Shown in pieces: positions 5,429-33,436 of a stretch of 40,657 nt of DNA. A program made the position numbers and the translations under genes. Location of the stretch: IMG/VR virus record IMGVR_UViG_3300047170_000085, positions 1-40,657 of that record, one strand, 5' to 3'. The DNA comes from a virus. Under the pieces are notes generated by a model that had not been told where the DNA came from, searched no databases, and saw nothing but the letters and a program-made list of their open reading frames with translations. Position 1 is the stretch's first letter. Every line of letters begins with the position of its first letter.

Positions 5429-6187
5429 ATGGAAGTTATTTGTCAAAATTGCAATATTTTTTTTCATAAAAAACCACATAGAATTTTAAGAAGTAAAAAA
5501 CATTTTTGTTCTACAAATTGTCATTTTGAACAATTAAAGAAAGATTCTACAAAAACTGAGGTGGAATGTGATTTTTGTGGGAAAAAACACTATAAAAACA
5601 AATCATGTCTAAATAGAAATTCACGATACTTCTGCTCAAAAATATGTATGAAATCAAAAATAATATTGCAATGCAAAATGTGTTCAAAAGAGTTTAGAAA
5701 AGCTGGTTATCATGATAATTATGGAATGTGTAGAAATTGCTATATAAAAGATTATTATAAAAAAAATCCTGATAAACTTGAAAAAAAACGATCAATAAAT
5801 CGCATAAGGCAAAGAATAAAGAATGGAACTCCTATCGATATACCTATAAGACCTAAAAAAAACACAAAAGGTTATTTAGATTCAAGTGGATATAAGATTG
5901 TTTATAAAGATGTAACCGCAAATACATGGGAATGTGGAAGAATCCACGAACATGTATGGATTATGAGTCACTTTTTAGGAAGACCTCTCACTGACAAGGA
6001 AACTGTGCATCACAAGAATGGAATTAGGGATGACAATCAAATCGAAAATTTAGAACTTTGGTCATCTTCTCATCCTCCCGGGCAAAGGGTTTCAGATAAA
6101 ATTAAATTTTATAAAGAATTTTTAGAATCTTATGGAGCTAAAGTGGATCTTAAAGATATGGAGTTTTTTCTTCACCATAGCATTTAA
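5429..6187 (+). CDS. HNH endonuclease with tandem zinc fingers
   Basis: This 252-residue protein has a GAGG ribosome site 7 bases upstream. The N-terminal half has repeated CxxC pairs (CQNC ... CSTNC, CDFC ... CSKIC, CKMC ... CRNC), giving three zinc-ribbon-like knuckles across residues 5-105. The HNH_3 catalytic region is about residues 178-215: HEHVWIMSHFLGRPL, VHHKNGIRDDNQIENLEL, with His-His and Asn in canonical positions. Such enzymes are mobile and nick or cut DNA. It starts a plus-strand island within the minus-strand late region and is followed by a small membrane protein. Base use is AT-richer than the structural neighbours, which fits transfer. Confidence 0.88.
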   Translation: MEVICQNCNIFFHKKPHRILRSKKHFCSTNCHFEQLKKDSTKTEVECDFCGKKHYKNKSCLNRNSRYFCSKICMKSKIILQCKMCSKEFRKAGYHDNYGMCRNCYIKDYYKKNPDKLEKKRSINRIRQRIKNGTPIDIPIRPKKNTKGYLDSSGYKIVYKDVTANTWECGRIHEHVWIMSHFLGRPLTDKETVHHKNGIRDDNQIENLELWSSSHPPGQRVSDKIKFYKEFLESYGAKVDLKDMEFFLHHSI

Positions 6188-12500: not shown

Positions 12501-12950
12501 CTACATACCGTTTACAGAATCGCCGAAAGGTCCGTTATTGTAGACAACCCCCTCAAACGAATCATTGTTACCGTAAGGTAAGGGCGGAGGAGGCGACAAA
12601 TAAGGCCCTGAACTAACAGCAAAAACGGTTGGGTTTGTGAATGCCGTAGGTTGCTGTGCTGGATATGCAAAAGGTGTATAACCCAGCGAATTTACATTAA
12701 GGGTTAAAGTATTTGTTGTCACTGCCAATACTTGAATTACTCTATTGTTTAATTGCTGCATTCCATATTGAGGTGGAATGAGCAACGAAACCGTCATTCC
12801 TGCCACATAAAAATGAGGATATTCGGTGGTAACAACGCACGGATTGGAATTAGTAATTGAAGAAATAGTCTTTGTAAGCAAGTTGGGGTGGACCTGAAGC
12901 TGACTGTATCCCTTGTAATACTCTACCACGGGTACTAAATAGCTAGTCAC
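12501..12950 (-). CDS. Small structural protein with FCCH-like beta module (149 aa)
   Basis: The likely start is GTG at 12950, within a GTGA overlap with the HNH gene upstream. The segment NSNPCVVTTEYPHFYVAGMT ... NRVIQVLAVTTNTLTLNVNS matches the order of elements in the FCCH-like domains of the 377- and 828-residue proteins: opening strand, xYHFyVAG turn, x-Asn-x-Val strand, then the TNTLTL strand. The C-terminus is Pro/Gly/Asn-rich (PPPPLPYGNNDSFEGVVYN) and resembles the end of the 377-residue protein (FGVTPSPLPYANQDVLSF). It is probably a head- or tail-associated protein. Confidence 0.6.
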   Translation of the reverse strand: MTSYLVPVVEYYKGYSQLQVHPNLLTKTISSITNSNPCVVTTEYPHFYVAGMTVSLLIPPQYGMQQLNNRVIQVLAVTTNTLTLNVNSLGYTPFAYPAQQPTAFTNPTVFAVSSGPYLSPPPPLPYGNNDSFEGVVYNNGPFGDSVNGM

Positions 12951-13510
12951 TTATTTTCTCTCATGATTAAATCCTCTTTCCTATGACATTTTGTGCAAAG
13001 CCATGTAACCTCTAAAGGCTTCTCATAATCGTGATGATGAGCTTCTATTTTACCTTGATTGTCACATTTTGAACATATTTGCGGTTTTATAATCTTTCCT
13101 GCTTTTATATGACGGTATATTTTTGCGCGAGCATTATGTTTTTTTCTATTCTTTTCTAAATTTTTTTTACCATATTCCGCGTATTTCTCTTTATTTTTAA
13201 AATATACTTTTCTGTAATATTCTGGATCTTCTTTTAATTTTTTTTCTAATTTTATTTTTTGATATTCAGAATAACTTTTTTTAAATTTTATATATTTATT
13301 TTTATAGAAGTTTGGGTTTTCACTTTTTTTCTTATCTCTCCAATCTTTAGTCCTTTTATTCCAAGCTGCGCGATCCTTTTCTATATATTTCTTCATTTTC
13401 TTACTTGAACATGATTTGCAGCGATATTCACGTCCAAGTTTTTCTTTTTTAGATTTATAGAATTCTTTTAAGTCTTTTTCTATTTTACAAACTGAACAAA
13501 CCCGATTCAT
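12947..13510 (-). CDS. HNH-type endonuclease inserted in the late operon (187 aa)
   Basis: The N-terminus has a zinc knuckle (CSVCKIEKDLKEFYKSKKEK ... CKSC), followed by a long Lys/Glu/Tyr-rich basic helix. The C-terminal domain has CSKCDNQGKIEAHHHDYEKP and CTKCHRKED. This is the recombination-endonuclease-like HNH form with two CxxC pairs and a His triplet. It is AT- and Lys-rich, unlike its structural neighbours. The stop TGA overlaps the GTG start of the next structural gene by 4 bases. A small hairpin (AAAGCC/GGCTTT) encloses the ribosome site just before its ATG. Mobility is inferred from the family. Confidence 0.75.
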   Translation of the reverse strand: MNRVCSVCKIEKDLKEFYKSKKEKLGREYRCKSCSSKKMKKYIEKDRAAWNKRTKDWRDKKKSENPNFYKNKYIKFKKSYSEYQKIKLEKKLKEDPEYYRKVYFKNKEKYAEYGKKNLEKNRKKHNARAKIYRHIKAGKIIKPQICSKCDNQGKIEAHHHDYEKPLEVTWLCTKCHRKEDLIMRENK

Positions 13511-15386: not shown

Positions 15387-15914
15387 TTATACCGCTACTT
15401 GGAGAGTGCAACGTAAGTTGACAATCCAAGAGGTGTTAGTGATGTTAAACACTTGAGCCATCTTCCATCCAGCTGTTTGGTAGAGTCTCAAACGTGGCGA
15501 CGCAATCTCTGGCGGCGCATAGATGAATTGGGCGCTATAGCCATCCAAATCCACCATATCATATGATTCTTGGCCTGGTAAGAAGATGTTATATACATCG
15601 TTACCATTAGCTGAAGAACCAGGTGTTACGCTACCAACTGATGACAAAAGGAATCGAATGTTTCTAATCGAACCCCATTCAGCCATCAACAAGTTGGAGT
15701 TATTCGCGTAATTAACTACGTTGATAAATCCAACCATTTGGTCTAGGTCAGCCGACAGATTCGTGTGGCATAAACCAAAGAATGCTGTACGTACTGGAGC
15801 TGTACCAAATTTCAGCTCACCTTCAATCATGTCCATAATGAACTGCGCATTGGCTGTTCTTAGCAATCTAACAGCTTTAGAGCAATCCAATGGGCTGATG
15901 TTAGTTGGGTTGTC
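15387..15914 (-). CDS. Major capsid exon 4
   Basis: This exon encodes the 175 C-terminal residues from DNPTNISPLDCSKAVRLL to WIVNLRCTLQVAV. A TTG codon at 15890 could be mistaken for a start. The preceding eight codons also match the family. The first bases GACAA can pair with intron bases TTGTT (17051-17047) as P10. With this boundary the intron ends in A rather than the usual G. Starting at 15917 (one extra Ile) would give a terminal G. Confidence 0.8.
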   Translation of the reverse strand, partial: DNPTNISPLDCSKAVRLLRTANAQFIMDMIEGELKFGTAPVRTAFFGLCHTNLSADLDQMVGFINVVNYANNSNLLMAEWGSIRNIRFLLSSVGSVTPGSSANGNDVYNIFLPGQESYDMVDLDGYSAQFIYAPPEIASPRLRLYQTAGWKMAQVFNITNTSWIVNLRCTLQVAV

Positions 15915-18900
15915 TATCTCTATTACTTATTGACTCAAATGCTGGGGAAATGCTATCATAAACTCATTATGAATAGTAACCCTACTGACCTAGCTTATTT
16001 TGCAGGATACATTGACGGAGATGGATGCTTCTCACTGAGAAAAACACAAACTGGGAGAGGAACAAAGTTCCAATCCGAGCTTATCATCAATACAGTCAAT
16101 GAAGAAAACGTTCTTTGGATGGTTAAAACCATAGGGGGAAGATATATCTTCTCTCCTTCTTATAGAAAAGGTCATAAACCTATTCACAGATACGTTCTCA
16201 GTGGTCCTTCTATAGAATCTATTGGATTTGATAAATACCTTGTCCAAAAGTCCAAGGAATTTGAAATATTCCAAAAATTTAGAAAGACAACTTCCAAAAA
16301 GGAACGAAAAGAACTGATTGAACAAATGCAATTTGCCAAAGAATCTTTGGGTGTGATCATTAGCAACATGAAAGAATCGATTGAAGCTGTTAGAAATACA
16401 ATTGTTCCTTCTATTGAGGACATTGCATATCTTGCAGGATTCATTGATGCTGAATGTTGTTTGGGTATTCAGAGAAATTTCACTCCAAATAGACCTAATC
16501 CTACCTATAAAATTCAGTTGCAATTGAATGACACTAAATTTCCTTGCCTTTTTTGGATTTCTGAACGTTTTGGAGGACAATTCCATTTTGTTGATAGAAG
16601 TCGTCTTAAAACATTTCATCGAAACCAAATGTGTTGGAGATTGAGTGCACTCGCACTTGTTCCACTTCTTCCTAAAATACTTCCGTTCCTTAAACATAAA
16701 AAGCCAGTTTGTGAAACATTGATCAAATTCGCGGAATTGACATTTCTTAGACAAGGAAGTCCTAGCCCAAATAGTCCTAAATTCTCTGAATTTTATAAAC
16801 CCATTCTCGAAGAAAGGGCTAAACTTTTTGATCATGTTACACATCTCAATAAAAAAGGCATTTAAGCGGGTGATCATTTCTGTCACCTCTTCATGTTTCC
16901 ATGAAGCTTAGTACTATCGCTTCACTCTTTCAAGTGTCTGACCGCTTTAGTCGTTCAGGCTGCACGGTTTCCCTGCTTGCCCCCTGTTGTCCGTCTGCTT
17001 ACGCAGCGAGGAGTTCCAAGTCGATTAGGTCTGATTTTACAACGGCAACAAATCTACCGTTGGTACCTGAGGTACAATTTACGGGAGGAGCGCCACCCTC
17101 CATCATGCTACGAGCCAATTGGTCTTCCGTCTCACGGAGCGACTGGCCAAGGACAGACACTGCACTGTTTAATACCGTTTGTTACTCACCTTATGGTGGG
17201 AATGGTCATTTCTGCCATTCTCCAGACCTTTCGTCGTCTGGGCCGGACTATCGCACCATCCTTGCGGATGCCCTCTCACTTAGTCTCTCAGGCTGCAATT
17301 ACGCTTGCCCCTTGTCGCCATGCTTTCGTTTAGGCTTCCAAGTCAATCAGAGCGGGTTTATAGACCCCATATTTATTTAGATTTTTTACATATTCATAGC
17401 ATTTTTCTCTAAATTCGAGTTCATATTCATCTACACCACCTCTATTATAGGTTGTAGGTGTATATTTTTGACAAAACTCGAGCATTTTTATTGCTTGTTT
17501 CTGTTTGATCTTAAGAAAAGGGATACATTTTTCTAAGAAAGGGATTGCTTGATCTCTTGTATAGATACCAAATCTATAAACCATACTGTTTGATGCTGTT
17601 CTACCTTTTAGGGTAAAGACAGAACCATTAGCACAATTTTCAACAATATAATTTATTCCCTTTATATCAGTCATGGAAAGCAAAATAGCTGGTCGATATT
17701 TGGAATTTACCATTCCTTTATCACCACTATCTTTAGCTATCGAAAAAGATCCATCAGTATCTAATAAACCAGCTACATATGCCCAAAATAGTGGATTATC
17801 ACTATCTTTTCCGCTTCGTCTGGAATAAGTTTGATGTGAAACGCGACTATCATTAAAAGATCTCATTTTAATATAGTCTTGCTCTTTTTTCTGCAAAAGT
17901 TCTTCAGATAATTTTATTCTTCCTGCTCTAGGATTATTTATAATAAAATCTGTTAAAAATTTTGCCCTTTCTTTTTTTATGACTAAAAAAGGAATAATTT
18001 TTTCCAGAAATGGCAAACATTTAGGAGCTTTTTCAAGCTTCCATTGATGAGAATCTTTTCGATTATGCCCATCTTTGGCTATGTGTGCTTTTCTGGTGAA
18101 AATTGAACCTGTATATTCACCAAGAAAAAAATCAATCAATTCTTTGTTCCAATTGGCAATCTGGATCACTGGATAATAAAGAGGTGAATATCCTTCTTTA
18201 TCTCCCTTTTTCTTCATGATAGAAAAACTTCCATCACCATCTAAGACACCAGCACTATAAGCCAATTTTACCTCTTCTATATTCACATTCCCTCCTTGCG
18301 GTTATGCAAAAAGGGTAACACAATCTAACATTAACTGCAATAGGCGAGTAATTTTAAGCAGCTATTTCATATTCATTTAAATCCAAAAAACGCCCTCTAG
18401 GGTCTTCGTTGATCAACATTATTTGCTCTTGTAACACGATATACGTTCCGTACCAGTCGATCCTTGCGTCGATGTCCAGAGCAGTAAGTTGTTGCGCAGC
18501 TGGGTCTACAATACCGTTGCCAAGAGGCACTGGTGCTGTTAGTAGGTTCTGATATCTACGTCTACGTAGAATATCGCCTGCTTGCTGATCCATCGTAATG
18601 GGATACACGGATTGTTACTCCCTTTCGGGGGGCACATCATTTCTGTATGCCTCTTACGCTCTCACGTAAGGTCAGACTCTATCTTCGCCATTTGGCGTTT
18701 GACGTATAGTCGTTGAGGATTCCAGGTTGTTGAAGTCGCAAAATCTCATTTATAAGTGCCATTTCTTGATCATTATATTTTACACCCTTAAATTTACCTA
18801 CTGTATTTTCATGCCTTAATAAGCTAAATTCTAGAATTTTTTCTGCTAGAACTCTTTTCTTACTCCTCAATTCAGGTAGTATCCAAGGGAGGAATTTCAT

Positions 18901-19407
18901 ATTTCTTGTTAAACCGAAAATATTGATGGCAAAACTTTCTTTGTGATGTTCCGCTCTTTTTTTTCGATTAACAAAATTATATTCCATTCCTTTTTCATCA
19001 AGTATTCTTTTGCACTCATTTAGGATTTCTTCATCCGTATTCGTGATGGTGGTACATGGTACAATAGTGACGTTATATCCTACAGTCTTTCGACTACATT
19101 TTGTTGCGGATATACATCCCTCTCCATCTACTATTCCACCTAACCACGCTCTATCTAAACCTGGCCTTTCCTGCTGATTGTCCATTGTTCCATCTCCTGG
19201 ATTGTCACACTACGAAGTTAATGTCTCTTGTAGTGTACCAGAAAGCTTTAGGAGTTTCCAGCATATAGTCAAATTTTACATGGGCTACCCAGTATTTCAA
19301 CCCATCGTTGTATGGATCAGGTCTGGCATCGGTCTTGCTAGCAGTTTCATGCTTAATTGCTGTTGAACTGCTGGAGGCAAGATCGAGGTTGTAGTAGGAC
19401 CTGACAT
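15387..19407 (-). CDS. Major capsid protein, N4-gp56-like, split by three group I introns
   Basis: Four exons read as one 320-residue protein: 19407-19300 (36 aa), 18605-18399 (69 aa), 17175-17056 (40 aa) and 15914-15387 (175 aa). Every junction is codon-exact. The joints restore family motifs: MPDLIHTTMG+YPITMDQQ, QIMLINEDP+VLNSAVSVLG and NCTSGTNG+DNPTNIS. Family landmarks include RRRRYQNLLTAPVPLGN, LDIDARIDWYGTYIVLQEQ, LGQSLRETEDQL, ELKFGTAPVR, LSSVGSVTPG and DGYSAQFIYAPPEI. The protein forms the capsid shell. It follows the scaffold gene by 27 bases, as expected. Without splicing only a 36-residue peptide would be made from the start codon, so splicing is required for virion formation. Confidence 0.85.
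15915..17055 (-). ncRNA. Group I intron 3 of the capsid gene (1141 nt)
   Basis: P1 is exon CAACGGU (17062-17056) with GCCGUUG (17046-17040), seven pairs with U.G at the splice site. The core carries GGGGGCAAGC, GCAGCCTGAACGACTA (ending 16948) and GCGATAGTAC (from 16920). P9 hairpins follow: CTTCATG-GAAA-CATGAAG and GGTGA/TCACC. A 9-pair stem (16866-16858 with 15942-15934) then closes a loop holding an endonuclease gene on the other strand. The core is clearly related to that of intron 2. Confidence 0.83.
15969..16865 (+). CDS. LAGLIDADG homing endonuclease of intron 3, antisense to the capsid gene
   Basis: The preferred start is ATG 15969 (MNSNPTDLAYFAGYIDGDGC). In-frame ATG 15939 and TTG 15930 lie upstream. 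This gives about 298 residues with two LAGLIDADG motifs: LAYFAGYIDGDGCFSL near the N-terminus and IAYLAGFIDAECCLGI about residue 157. It is therefore a monomeric double-motif enzyme. The second motif has Glu as its acidic residue. The enzyme cuts intronless alleles at the insertion site to spread its intron. It is encoded opposite to the capsid mRNA, so it needs its own promoter or readthrough from the left. Its stop codon falls in the closing stem. Confidence 0.87.
   Translation: MNSNPTDLAYFAGYIDGDGCFSLRKTQTGRGTKFQSELIINTVNEENVLWMVKTIGGRYIFSPSYRKGHKPIHRYVLSGPSIESIGFDKYLVQKSKEFEIFQKFRKTTSKKERKELIEQMQFAKESLGVIISNMKESIEAVRNTIVPSIEDIAYLAGFIDAECCLGIQRNFTPNRPNPTYKIQLQLNDTKFPCLFWISERFGGQFHFVDRSRLKTFHRNQMCWRLSALALVPLLPKILPFLKHKKPVCETLIKFAELTFLRQGSPSPNSPKFSEFYKPILEERAKLFDHVTHLNKKGI
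17056..17175 (-). CDS. Major capsid exon 3 (40-codon mini-exon)
   Basis: This exon encodes VLNSAVSVLGQSLRETEDQL, ARSMMEGGAPPVNCTSGTNG, sandwiched between introns 2 and 3. It has no start codon of its own in a useful position and would be missed by simple gene calling. The family match is strong (VLN ... LGQSLRETEDQL). Confidence 0.82.
17176..18398 (-). ncRNA. Group I intron 2 of the capsid gene (1223 nt)
   Basis: The 3' core shows GGGGCAAGC, GCAGCCTGAGAGACTA (ending 17281) and GCGATAGTCC (17254-17245), the R and S parts of P7. A GGTCTGG-type P9 region and ...GAGTAACAAACG at the end follow, closely like intron 1's GAGTAACAATCCG. The preceding exon ends in T (CCT) and the intron ends in G. I could not find a convincing P1. 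The boundaries therefore rest on the capsid protein alignment. Confidence 0.8.
17330..18286 (-). CDS. LAGLIDADG homing endonuclease of intron 2 (318 aa)
   Basis: The start ATG 18286 is preceded by AAGGAGGG. Two motifs are visible: LAYSAGVLDGDGSFSI (about residues 8-23) and WAYVAGLLDTDGSFSI (about 167-183), each with the catalytic Asp. Each half repeats PFLEKIIPFLVIKKERA / PFLEKCIPFLKIKQKQA, showing an ancestral duplication. It lies in the same direction as the capsid gene, between the intron 5' end and the catalytic core. The sequence is AT- and Lys-rich compared with the capsid exons. It mobilises intron 2. Confidence 0.9.
   Translation of the reverse strand: MNIEEVKLAYSAGVLDGDGSFSIMKKKGDKEGYSPLYYPVIQIANWNKELIDFFLGEYTGSIFTRKAHIAKDGHNRKDSHQWKLEKAPKCLPFLEKIIPFLVIKKERAKFLTDFIINNPRAGRIKLSEELLQKKEQDYIKMRSFNDSRVSHQTYSRRSGKDSDNPLFWAYVAGLLDTDGSFSIAKDSGDKGMVNSKYRPAILLSMTDIKGINYIVENCANGSVFTLKGRTASNSMVYRFGIYTRDQAIPFLEKCIPFLKIKQKQAIKMLEFCQKYTPTTYNRGGVDEYELEFREKCYEYVKNLNKYGVYKPALIDLEA
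18399..18605 (-). CDS. Major capsid exon 2
   Basis: The 69 codons run from YPITMDQQAGDILRRRRYQN to QIMLINEDP. The reading frame continues into intron 2 for 14 further codons that do not resemble the family before a TAA. The 5' edge is set by P10 pairing (TATCC with GGGTA) and the 3' edge by the family sequence and a terminal T. Confidence 0.82.
18606..19299 (-). ncRNA. Group I intron 1 of the capsid gene (694 nt)
   Basis: P1 is exon AUGGGU (19305-19300) with GCCCAU (19285-19280), ending in the required U.G. P10 is GGGTA (19290-19286) with exon 2 TATCC. The P7 strands are CAACGACTA (18715-18707) and AAGATAGAGTC (18685-18675), the classic phage group I consensus. A TTACG/CGTAA hairpin and a CCCC-GAAA-GGG hairpin follow (P9 elements). 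The last intron base is G. The endonuclease frame runs from P2 into the P7 region. Confidence 0.85.
18679..19185 (-). CDS. Single-motif LAGLIDADG homing endonuclease of intron 1 (168 aa)
   Basis: The start ATG 19185 follows GGAGATGGAACA. One motif is present, RAWLGGIVDGEGCISA (about residues 12-27), with Glu in the acidic position, so the enzyme should act as a homodimer. Basic clusters (NRKKRAEHHKES) and a hydrophobic LPWILPELRSKKRVLAEKIL segment fit the fold. The C-terminal codons (GILNDYTSNAKWRR) are read from the intron's own P7 region, so the RNA core constrains the protein tail. The enzyme promotes homing of intron 1. Confidence 0.88.
   Translation of the reverse strand: MDNQQERPGLDRAWLGGIVDGEGCISATKCSRKTVGYNVTIVPCTTITNTDEEILNECKRILDEKGMEYNFVNRKKRAEHHKESFAINIFGLTRNMKFLPWILPELRSKKRVLAEKILEFSLLRHENTVGKFKGVKYNDQEMALINEILRLQQPGILNDYTSNAKWRR
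19300..19407 (-). CDS. Major capsid exon 1
   Basis: The exon encodes MSGPTTTSILPPAVQQQLSM followed by KLLARPMPDLIHTTMG. GAGG lies 9 bases before the ATG. The frame hits TGA at the codon after the splice site, so an unspliced message gives a truncated peptide. The last six bases, ATGGGT, form P1 with intron bases 19285-19280. Confidence 0.82.
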
Positions 19408-32805: not shown

Positions 32806-32960
32806 TGGATGTAAAACTAATAGTTTCTATAGAAAATCTAGTGGAGATAATCGACTGTTTGGATTCTTATGAGTGTGAATATGGACCAAAGAATTACGTT
32901 CTTTTGAACCAATTAATAGATTATTATAATTTAATAAAACCTATTGAGGATGGTGAGTGA
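32805..32960 (+). CDS. Small acidic protein (51 aa)
   Basis: The frame is MDVKLIVSIENLVEIIDCLD, SYECEYGPKNYVLLNQLIDY, then YNLIKPIEDGE. It overlaps the previous stop and ends TGATG into the following gene. Its ending EDGE shares the bases GAGGATGGTGAGT with the end of recT (QDGE), so a small duplication may have occurred. There is no motif. It is probably a helical accessory of the operon. Confidence 0.5.
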   Translation: MDVKLIVSIENLVEIIDCLDSYECEYGPKNYVLLNQLIDYYNLIKPIEDGE

Positions 32961-33432
32961 TGGAATTCGTAACAGGCCCCGCGGCGACTATACGTAAAAA
33001 TATGCTAGGTTTTAAAACTGGAAGATTAACAGTGATTGCTTTTTCTCATAAGGAGAAAAAGCAATCCTTTTGGAAAGCTCAGTGTGAATGTGGCAACATT
33101 CGCACGATTTCTACGGGAGAATTAAACCGCGGGCGCTTTCCAGTTCCTTCATATTGTGACAATAAAAAATGTGTGAATCCTGAGCATCTTTATATAGGAA
33201 CTCCCCAAGACAATTCTAACGATATGGTTGAGCGTGGTTTAATTCCTTGTGGACCTAACAAAAAGAAAGGAAGTCCTGGAGAAAAAAACGTCAAAGCAAA
33301 ATTAGACACTGAAAAAGTAAAATACATTCGTTATCTATGTGAGAATGGTTTTAAAAGATCAGTAATGGCTTCATTCTTTCACGTTCATCCTGAAACAATA
33401 GCACGAATAGCACGAGGTCAATCATGGAATTC
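32960..33432. repeat. 9-bp direct repeat bracketing the HNH gene
   Basis: ATGGAATTC lies at 32960-32968 and at 33424-33432. The first is the HNH start and the second is the start of the exonuclease gene. Removing one copy and the intervening DNA restores a TGATGGAATTCTTAG junction, like the other stop/start overlaps of this operon. Confidence 0.6.
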
Positions 33433-33436
33433 TTAG
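32960..33436 (+). CDS. HNH endonuclease, internally shortened (158 aa)
   Basis: The N-terminal domain (GFKTGRLTVIAFSHKEKKQS FWKAQCECGNIR) parallels that of the enzyme at 654. The sequence then jumps directly to SYCDNKKCVNPEHLYIGTPQ and DNSNDMVERG. It therefore lacks the central section that holds the first catalytic His (LHKC in the other copy). A C-terminal helix-turn-helix ends IARGQSWNS. It may be inactive. The first nine bases, ATGGAATTC, recur at 33424 where the exonuclease gene begins, so the gene is bracketed by a direct repeat. Confidence 0.75.
   Translation: MEFVTGPAATIRKNMLGFKTGRLTVIAFSHKEKKQSFWKAQCECGNIRTISTGELNRGRFPVPSYCDNKKCVNPEHLYIGTPQDNSNDMVERGLIPCGPNKKKGSPGEKNVKAKLDTEKVKYIRYLCENGFKRSVMASFFHVHPETIARIARGQSWNS

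Follow-up and report, generated by a model that had tools for sequence, protein, structure and literature searches.

How does a phage obtain its major capsid protein (MCP) from a gene that is interrupted three times, and what becomes of protein made before the interruptions are removed? The question is raised by an uncultured tailed phage whose IMG/VR virus record, the 40,657-nt stretch analyzed here in full (the window), carries the MCP gene on its minus strand from 19407 to 15387.

Capsid exons, introns and ribozyme cores

The original prediction, made from sequence alone, held that this gene contains three group I introns and encodes a 320-residue product, with all junctions in frame and every 5′ exon ending in T. 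Excision of the three intervening segments (Table 1) leaves a 963-nt frame of 320 residues, built from four exons whose lengths are each divisible by three. The joined product has a full-length profile match to PHROG 1357, major head protein (residues 5–313, E = 6.6e-31); Pfam Phage_capsid_4 matched the spliced product at E = 7.3e-4 and 20.3 bits, below its cut-off of 27. A scan of IMG/VR gave 80 relatives, and in 14 IMG/VR contigs (L001–L014) the gene is uninterrupted, at 90–94% amino-acid identity to the joined product. In the 13 of these 14 contigs that were aligned, all three junctions are empty sites with no base gained or lost. Because this amino-acid identity is retained at a DNA identity of only 73–76% between intact alleles and joined exons, the spliced product is under strong purifying selection. 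The predicted gene structure, product, in-frame junctions and T at each 5′ exon end all held, with correct coordinates and with the intact alleles in register. An AlphaFold2 model of an intact capsid relative (8-sequence alignment) was unusable, with a pLDDT of 28. A search of GTDB genomes for a prophage or host with the capsid alignment gave 128 pattern matches, of which 0 encode a relative.

Table 1 Features of the interrupted capsid gene (coordinates in the window).
Feature	Coordinates	Strand	Description	Basis
MCP exon 1	19300..19407	-	codons 1-36, 108 nt	in register with intact alleles
Group I intron 1	18606..19299	-	site 108	sequence and covariation of 9 related introns
LAGLIDADG endonuclease of intron 1	18679..19185	-	168 aa, one motif, in P6	Pfam LAGLIDADG_3, E = 4.3e-5
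MCP exon 2	18399..18605	-	codons 37-105, 207 nt	in register with intact alleles
Group I intron 2	17176..18398	-	site 315	sequence and model R1
Read-through tag, intron 2	18354..18398	-	RGRFLDLNEYEIAA-stop on MCP residues 1-105	ends ..EIAA-stop
LAGLIDADG endonuclease of intron 2	17330..18286	-	318 aa, two motifs, in P1 loop	Pfam LAGLIDADG_1, E = 3.7e-7
MCP exon 3	17056..17175	-	codons 106-145, 120 nt	in register with intact alleles
Group I intron 3	15915..17055	-	site 435	sequence and model R1
Read-through tag, intron 3	16999..17055	-	RFVAVVKSDLIDLELLAA-stop on MCP residues 1-145	ends ..LLAA-stop
LAGLIDADG endonuclease of intron 3	15930..16865	+	up to 311 aa, two motifs, antisense to capsid gene	Pfam LAGLIDADG_1, E = 3.5e-9
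MCP exon 4	15387..15914	-	codons 146-320 and stop, 528 nt	in register with intact alleles

The capsid gene is interrupted by three group I introns, as shown by their identity, junctions and structure. Each intron has a P1 with a U·G pair at the splice site together with a P10, and each has a P3–P7 pseudoknotted core with the conserved guanosine-binding site in P7, which in intron 3 includes one extra A. Introns 1 and 2 also have the terminal omega-G; intron 3 has an A at its frame-predicted end (discussed below). Self-splicing of the three introns is inferred, there being no RNA data for these phages.

In intron 1, P1 pairs AUGGGU (19305–19300) with GCCCAU (19285–19280), P10 pairs GGGUA (19290–19286) with UAUCC, P3 pairs UUUGAC (19273–19268) with GUCAAA (18703–18698) and P7 pairs GACU (18711–18708) with AGUC (18678–18675). 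The P1 of intron 3 is formed by AACGGU (17061–17056) and GCCGUU (17046–17041), and its P10 by UUGUU (17051–17047) and GACAA. For intron 2, AGACCCU (18405–18399) pairs with GGGGUCU (17368–17362) in P1 and AAUAU (17373–17369) with GUAUU in P10. This guide lies ~1 kb downstream, behind the endonuclease gene and at the 3′ end of its reading frame, which encodes the guide sequence of both P1 and P10; the gene thus sits in the P1 loop. A P1 adjoining the 5′ splice site of intron 2 amounted to only a 3–4-bp hairpin and was dropped once the distal GGGGUCU was found. The P1 pairings predicted for introns 1 and 3 were confirmed, and intron 2 has a P1 too, with its guide distal.

The original prediction proposed a covariance search with Rfam Intron_gpI as its check. 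RF00028 gave no hit on the window, nor at the gathering score on ten intron-bearing relatives, and no usable hit when the search was relaxed to E values up to 10. This outcome would have wrongly refuted the introns; it reflects a limit of the detection model, which overlooks this intron family, and not a defining feature. As Rfam Intron_gpI gave no usable hit, a covariance model (R1) was built from eight relatives, with no window sequence included. R1 matches intron 2 (17221–17362, 94.5 bits, E = 4.4e-22) and intron 3 (16888–17040, 66.6 bits, E = 3.6e-15), which have one core type in common, and weakly matches the P7–P9 part only of intron 1 (E = 0.028). The core of intron 1 differs, and we take it to resemble group IB introns of fungal mitochondria (AAUCAGCAGGAAA). 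For the intron 2/3 type (44 matches), 92.1% of cells are paired and 24 of 28 pairs have changed on both sides (0/500 shuffles); for the intron 1 type (nine introns), the corresponding values are 98.1% and 13 of 24 (0/500 shuffles). The P3 pseudoknot, which the model did not include, shows better pairing inside single sequences than across sequences (7.2 versus 4.0 shuffled, 0/2000).

Insertion sites, endonucleases and a micro-intron

The capsid gene is a population-wide intron hotspot in this phage group. Splice-aware alignment of all loci resolved ten intron sites in the 963-nt gene across relatives, with last exon bases at 108, 235, 262, 293, 315, 353, 399, 435, 546 and 645; a single locus was assigned to 312, next to 315. 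Among 57 complete genes, a few of them from near-duplicate contigs, 14 have no intron, 12 have one, 15 have two, eight have three and eight have four. The predicted rarity of three introns in one structural gene holds for described phages; here, 16 of the 57 genes carry three or four interruptions. The splice search gives a slight preference to exons ending in T and introns ending in G, and neither feature is therefore independent evidence from that search. Of the 105 model matches in related loci, every one lies in the capsid gene or immediately upstream of it, the latter in four cases of truncation or divergence, although this gene accounts for 16% of the DNA that was searched with the intron model. 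The window's own pattern (108, 315, 435) recurs in L060, and many introns are homologous across sites.

Two introns, at site 399 of L050 and site 546 of L075, look chimeric, with the 5′ part (P1, P3, P4) of one core type followed by a complete core of the other. In L069, whose capsid gene is diverged (53% identity), a model hit (5864–5927) immediately precedes the capsid match and suggests that an intron lies close to the N terminus there too.

The three LAGLIDADG endonucleases of the window have the motif with its acidic residue and score 24.1, 31.4 and 37.9 bits against Pfam cut-offs of 22.5 and 23.1, and thereby pass them; their homing activity is inferred. The coding sequence in intron 1 overlaps the ribozyme core, from the Q element to the S element. 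The antisense gene in intron 3, with an internal ATG at 15969, lies in the loop of P9.2 (CUUAAAUG, 16866–16859, with CAUUUGAG, 15941–15934). The endonucleases of introns 2 and 3 are homologous over their full length (25% identity, E = 1.5e-12) despite their opposite strands, and antisense relatives occur in at least 10 further loci. LittleE provides the one precedent for a LAGLIDADG frame lying antisense in a phage capsid intron (PMC3706429). In a search for a promoter of the antisense gene, one 10/12 match was found at 15930–15959, but promoter-like sites are fewer in this region than in shuffled sequence. The window also contains free-standing HNH-type nuclease genes at 654–1301, 5429–6187, 32957–33436 and 12947–13510; two match Pfam HNH_3, a third matches zf-His_Me_endon weakly, and the fourth has HNH-like cysteine/histidine spacing without a Pfam match.

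At site 262, a coreless insertion of 36–51 nt (the micro-intron) is found in 22 loci (e.g. L041:2172–2300; L027–L068 and others), all of which (22 of 22) have a full group I intron downstream at site 293, separated from the insertion by a 31-nt mini-exon. The micro-intron lacks a core and has a terminal G; its P1 (GAUUGGU/GCCAAUC) is present in 20 of 20 distinct sequences, the variable pair of its P10 covaries with the exon (G-C in 13, A-U in seven), and a hairpin between micro-intron and mini-exon covaries as well. The micro-intron is never seen without the downstream intron; in L061, site 262 is instead occupied by a full intron and site 293 is empty. Skipping of the mini-exon by direct splicing from 262 to 294 was ruled out since it would break the frame, and the mini-exon must therefore be retained. 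By inference, one ribozyme, that of the intron 31 nt downstream, probably excises both introns.

Ala-Ala endings in the exon frame

Read in the exon frame, intron 1 presents an immediate stop (UGA) and no tag. The frame stays open for 14 codons into intron 2 and 18 codons into intron 3, and both readings end in Ala-Ala (Table 1). Across 62 distinct introns, a count that omits sites 108 and 293, exon-frame read-through ends in Ala-Ala-stop in 58; the four others end in LKVA (twice), LVA and IDA. Such endings are found in 0 of 59 and 1 of 52 cases in the other two frames and in 0.26% of dinucleotide shuffles. With one exception, the site-108 introns reach a stop within two codons; site 293 lies downstream of the micro-intron, and read-through of the micro-intron itself already ends in NLLAA or CLAA. 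In the final two codons (GCN GCN), positions 1–2 are nearly fixed while the third positions and the stop codon vary, which argues for a conserved peptide rather than a conserved RNA hairpin. Tags occur in at least four intron parts and serve all three phases. Tags of window intron 2 and of some site-262 introns fall in the P1 loop, with further site-262 tags in P2; window intron 3 and many other introns have theirs in P5, and P6 tags occur at sites 235 and 435. Some of the tags overlap conserved RNA (P6/P7, GCAGCCUGA) or a hairpin with a GNRA cap (GCUGCGUAAGCAG). Because shared descent links many tags, 58 of 62 is too high as a count of independent events. The presence of the tags in frame is shown, as are their frame specificity and codon signature.

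A search pattern without the tag found homologous introns in ribonucleotide-reductase (RNR), RNA polymerase and other genes; picked independently of the tag, these form a control set. In this set, introns in RNR genes stop immediately (TNP-stop, CNP-stop) with no tag, and introns in four capsid genes end in AA-stop. A pattern containing LAA-stop returned 41 further distinct introns; in 37 of them the tag continues the exon frame, which is open for at least 40 codons upstream, and the readable upstream ORFs resemble diverse capsid genes. Since the tag was itself the selection criterion, the frame alone counts as evidence from this set. Among nine diverged capsid introns chosen without regard to the tag, five end in AA. 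Two mycobacteriophage introns with RT-PCR-verified splicing (PMC3706429) offer out-of-sample comparisons: read-through ends ..WNSVATAAA-stop in the LittleE capsid intron (L230:1346–1376) and ..DDLAAAAA-stop in the BAKA tail intron (L231:1186–1219). These two introns are partly related to each other. The Tuc2009 capsid intron has an immediate stop and no tag.

For ClpXP, no element of the ssrA degron matters more than the terminal Ala-Ala-COO- (PMC7652416), and bacterial tags commonly end in LAA (PMC9382460). This C-terminal element of an ssrA-like degron is present in window introns 2 and 3 and in 58 of the 62 introns of the group. Degradation by ClpXP/ClpAP and clearance of the fragments are inferred, without proteolysis data. 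We found no described case, and hence no precedent, of an intron-encoded degron in the open-access literature searched, where subscription journals are mostly missing.

Proposed explanation, alternatives and known systems

The explanation we judge likely is that three mobile group I introns occupy the capsid gene and that two of them carry tags marking fragments made from unspliced message; splicing, homing, degradation and benefit are its inferred parts. Homing endonucleases would have moved the introns into conserved codons of the major capsid gene, and the late transcript would self-splice three times to give the 320-residue capsid protein. Ribosomes could start on the message before splicing finishes, so that the introns would govern the fate of premature translation. 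Intron 1, reached after 36 codons, would halt such translation immediately. Introns 2 and 3, reached after 105 and 145 codons, would append Ile-Ala-Ala and Leu-Ala-Ala as an ssrA-like C-terminal degron, and assembly-poisoning capsid fragments would be destroyed by host ClpXP/ClpAP. The putative benefit is protection of capsid assembly. In a bolder form, which we also hold to be probable, group I introns of phage structural genes have evolved a cis-encoded degradation tag: each stays in frame with its preceding exon only far enough to add an ssrA-like (L)AA tail, and proteins from unspliced messages are thereby born marked for ClpXP, in a system that in relatives includes the micro-intron.

A first alternative, which we consider unlikely, is that these are ordinary mobile group I introns whose Ala-Ala endings are by-products of RNA hairpins or shared descent and have no proteolytic role. 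In its favor, several tags lie in hairpins like GCUGC-GUAA-GCAG or in P6/J6-7 (GCAGCCUGA), and the homology of many introns across sites is as it would expect. Against it stand the frame specificity (58/62 versus 0/59 and 1/52), the placement of tags in different phases and intron parts, the free third codon positions and stop codons, the homologous cores without tags in RNR genes, and the out-of-sample agreement of LittleE and BAKA.

Another alternative, likewise improbable, is that intron 3, and hence this capsid allele, is inactive or mis-assembled. Its support comes from two departures. Intron 3 ends ..AGAGAUA (..UAAUAGAGAUA followed by GAC), placing an A at the frame-predicted last base, 15915, without the omega-G expected of group I, while the remaining listed site-435 introns end in G; this is a correction to the original prediction. 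The 3′ strand of P7 also has an extra A (a bulge) beside the guanosine-binding pair (UAGUAC, about 16913–16916). However, exon 4 is intact and in frame, the core scores 66.6 bits even so, and the site-435 intron of L059 has an extra base in P7 too. The nearest in-frame G is 15918, and splicing after it preserves the frame and adds one Ile. These oddities could reflect weak activity of the intron, a 3′ splice site that adds one codon, or a mistake in assembly, and intron 3 may splice poorly or give the +1-codon product.

Removal of the insertions as inteins or their skipping by ribosomal bypassing, consistent with all junctions lying at codon boundaries, is all but excluded by the in-frame stops inside each insertion, the absence of an intein domain among the Pfam hits, the P1/P10 guides and the covarying P3–P7 pseudoknot.

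If our preferred reading of mobile introns with degradation tags is true, introns of bacteria-infecting viruses gain a protein-level function, flagging the products of their own splicing failure for destruction. Such quality control by introns would be one reason that a highly expressed capsid gene tolerates up to four of them, and it makes testable how a selfish element persists in a phage's most highly expressed gene. The group also offers a natural series: ten insertion sites with empty alleles, homing endonucleases encoded in sense or antisense, and perhaps one ribozyme serving two introns.

The introns as such add new members to a class already known. Jug and crAss-like phages likewise have essential genes (terL, nrdD, DNA polymerase) split by several group I introns per genome, partly verified with metatranscriptomes (PMC12363816). 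Their huge genomes spread introns over many genes, whereas the phage of the window gathers them in one 963-nt gene; no read-through tag is mentioned in the relevant sections of that report. Close parallels to the window are seen in the LittleE major capsid intron (PMC3706429; JF937101), which is group I-like, has an antisense LAGLIDADG frame and a U at the 5′ exon end, reads through to Ala-Ala (ATAAA-stop) and matches R1 weakly (E = 1.8e-5). In contrast to the window, LittleE has one intron and not three, in an unrelated HK97-type capsid gene, and its splicing is proven by RT-PCR and protein sequencing; the relevant sections of PMC3706429 mention no tag. Nuclear rDNA group I introns (PMC9548176) share with intron 3 an endonuclease gene on the strand opposite the interrupted gene, although theirs are His-Cys endonucleases in rDNA and not a LAGLIDADG endonuclease in a phage protein gene. 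Finally, the E. coli ssrA (tmRNA) tag, AANDENYALAA (PMC7652416), resembles the intron tags in placing a C-terminal (Leu)-Ala-Ala-COO- on unfinished proteins, and site 235 of L057 ends in YALAA exactly as the E. coli tag does. The two differ in origin, as the ssrA tag is added in trans by tmRNA while the intron tags are encoded in cis, ahead of a normal stop codon.
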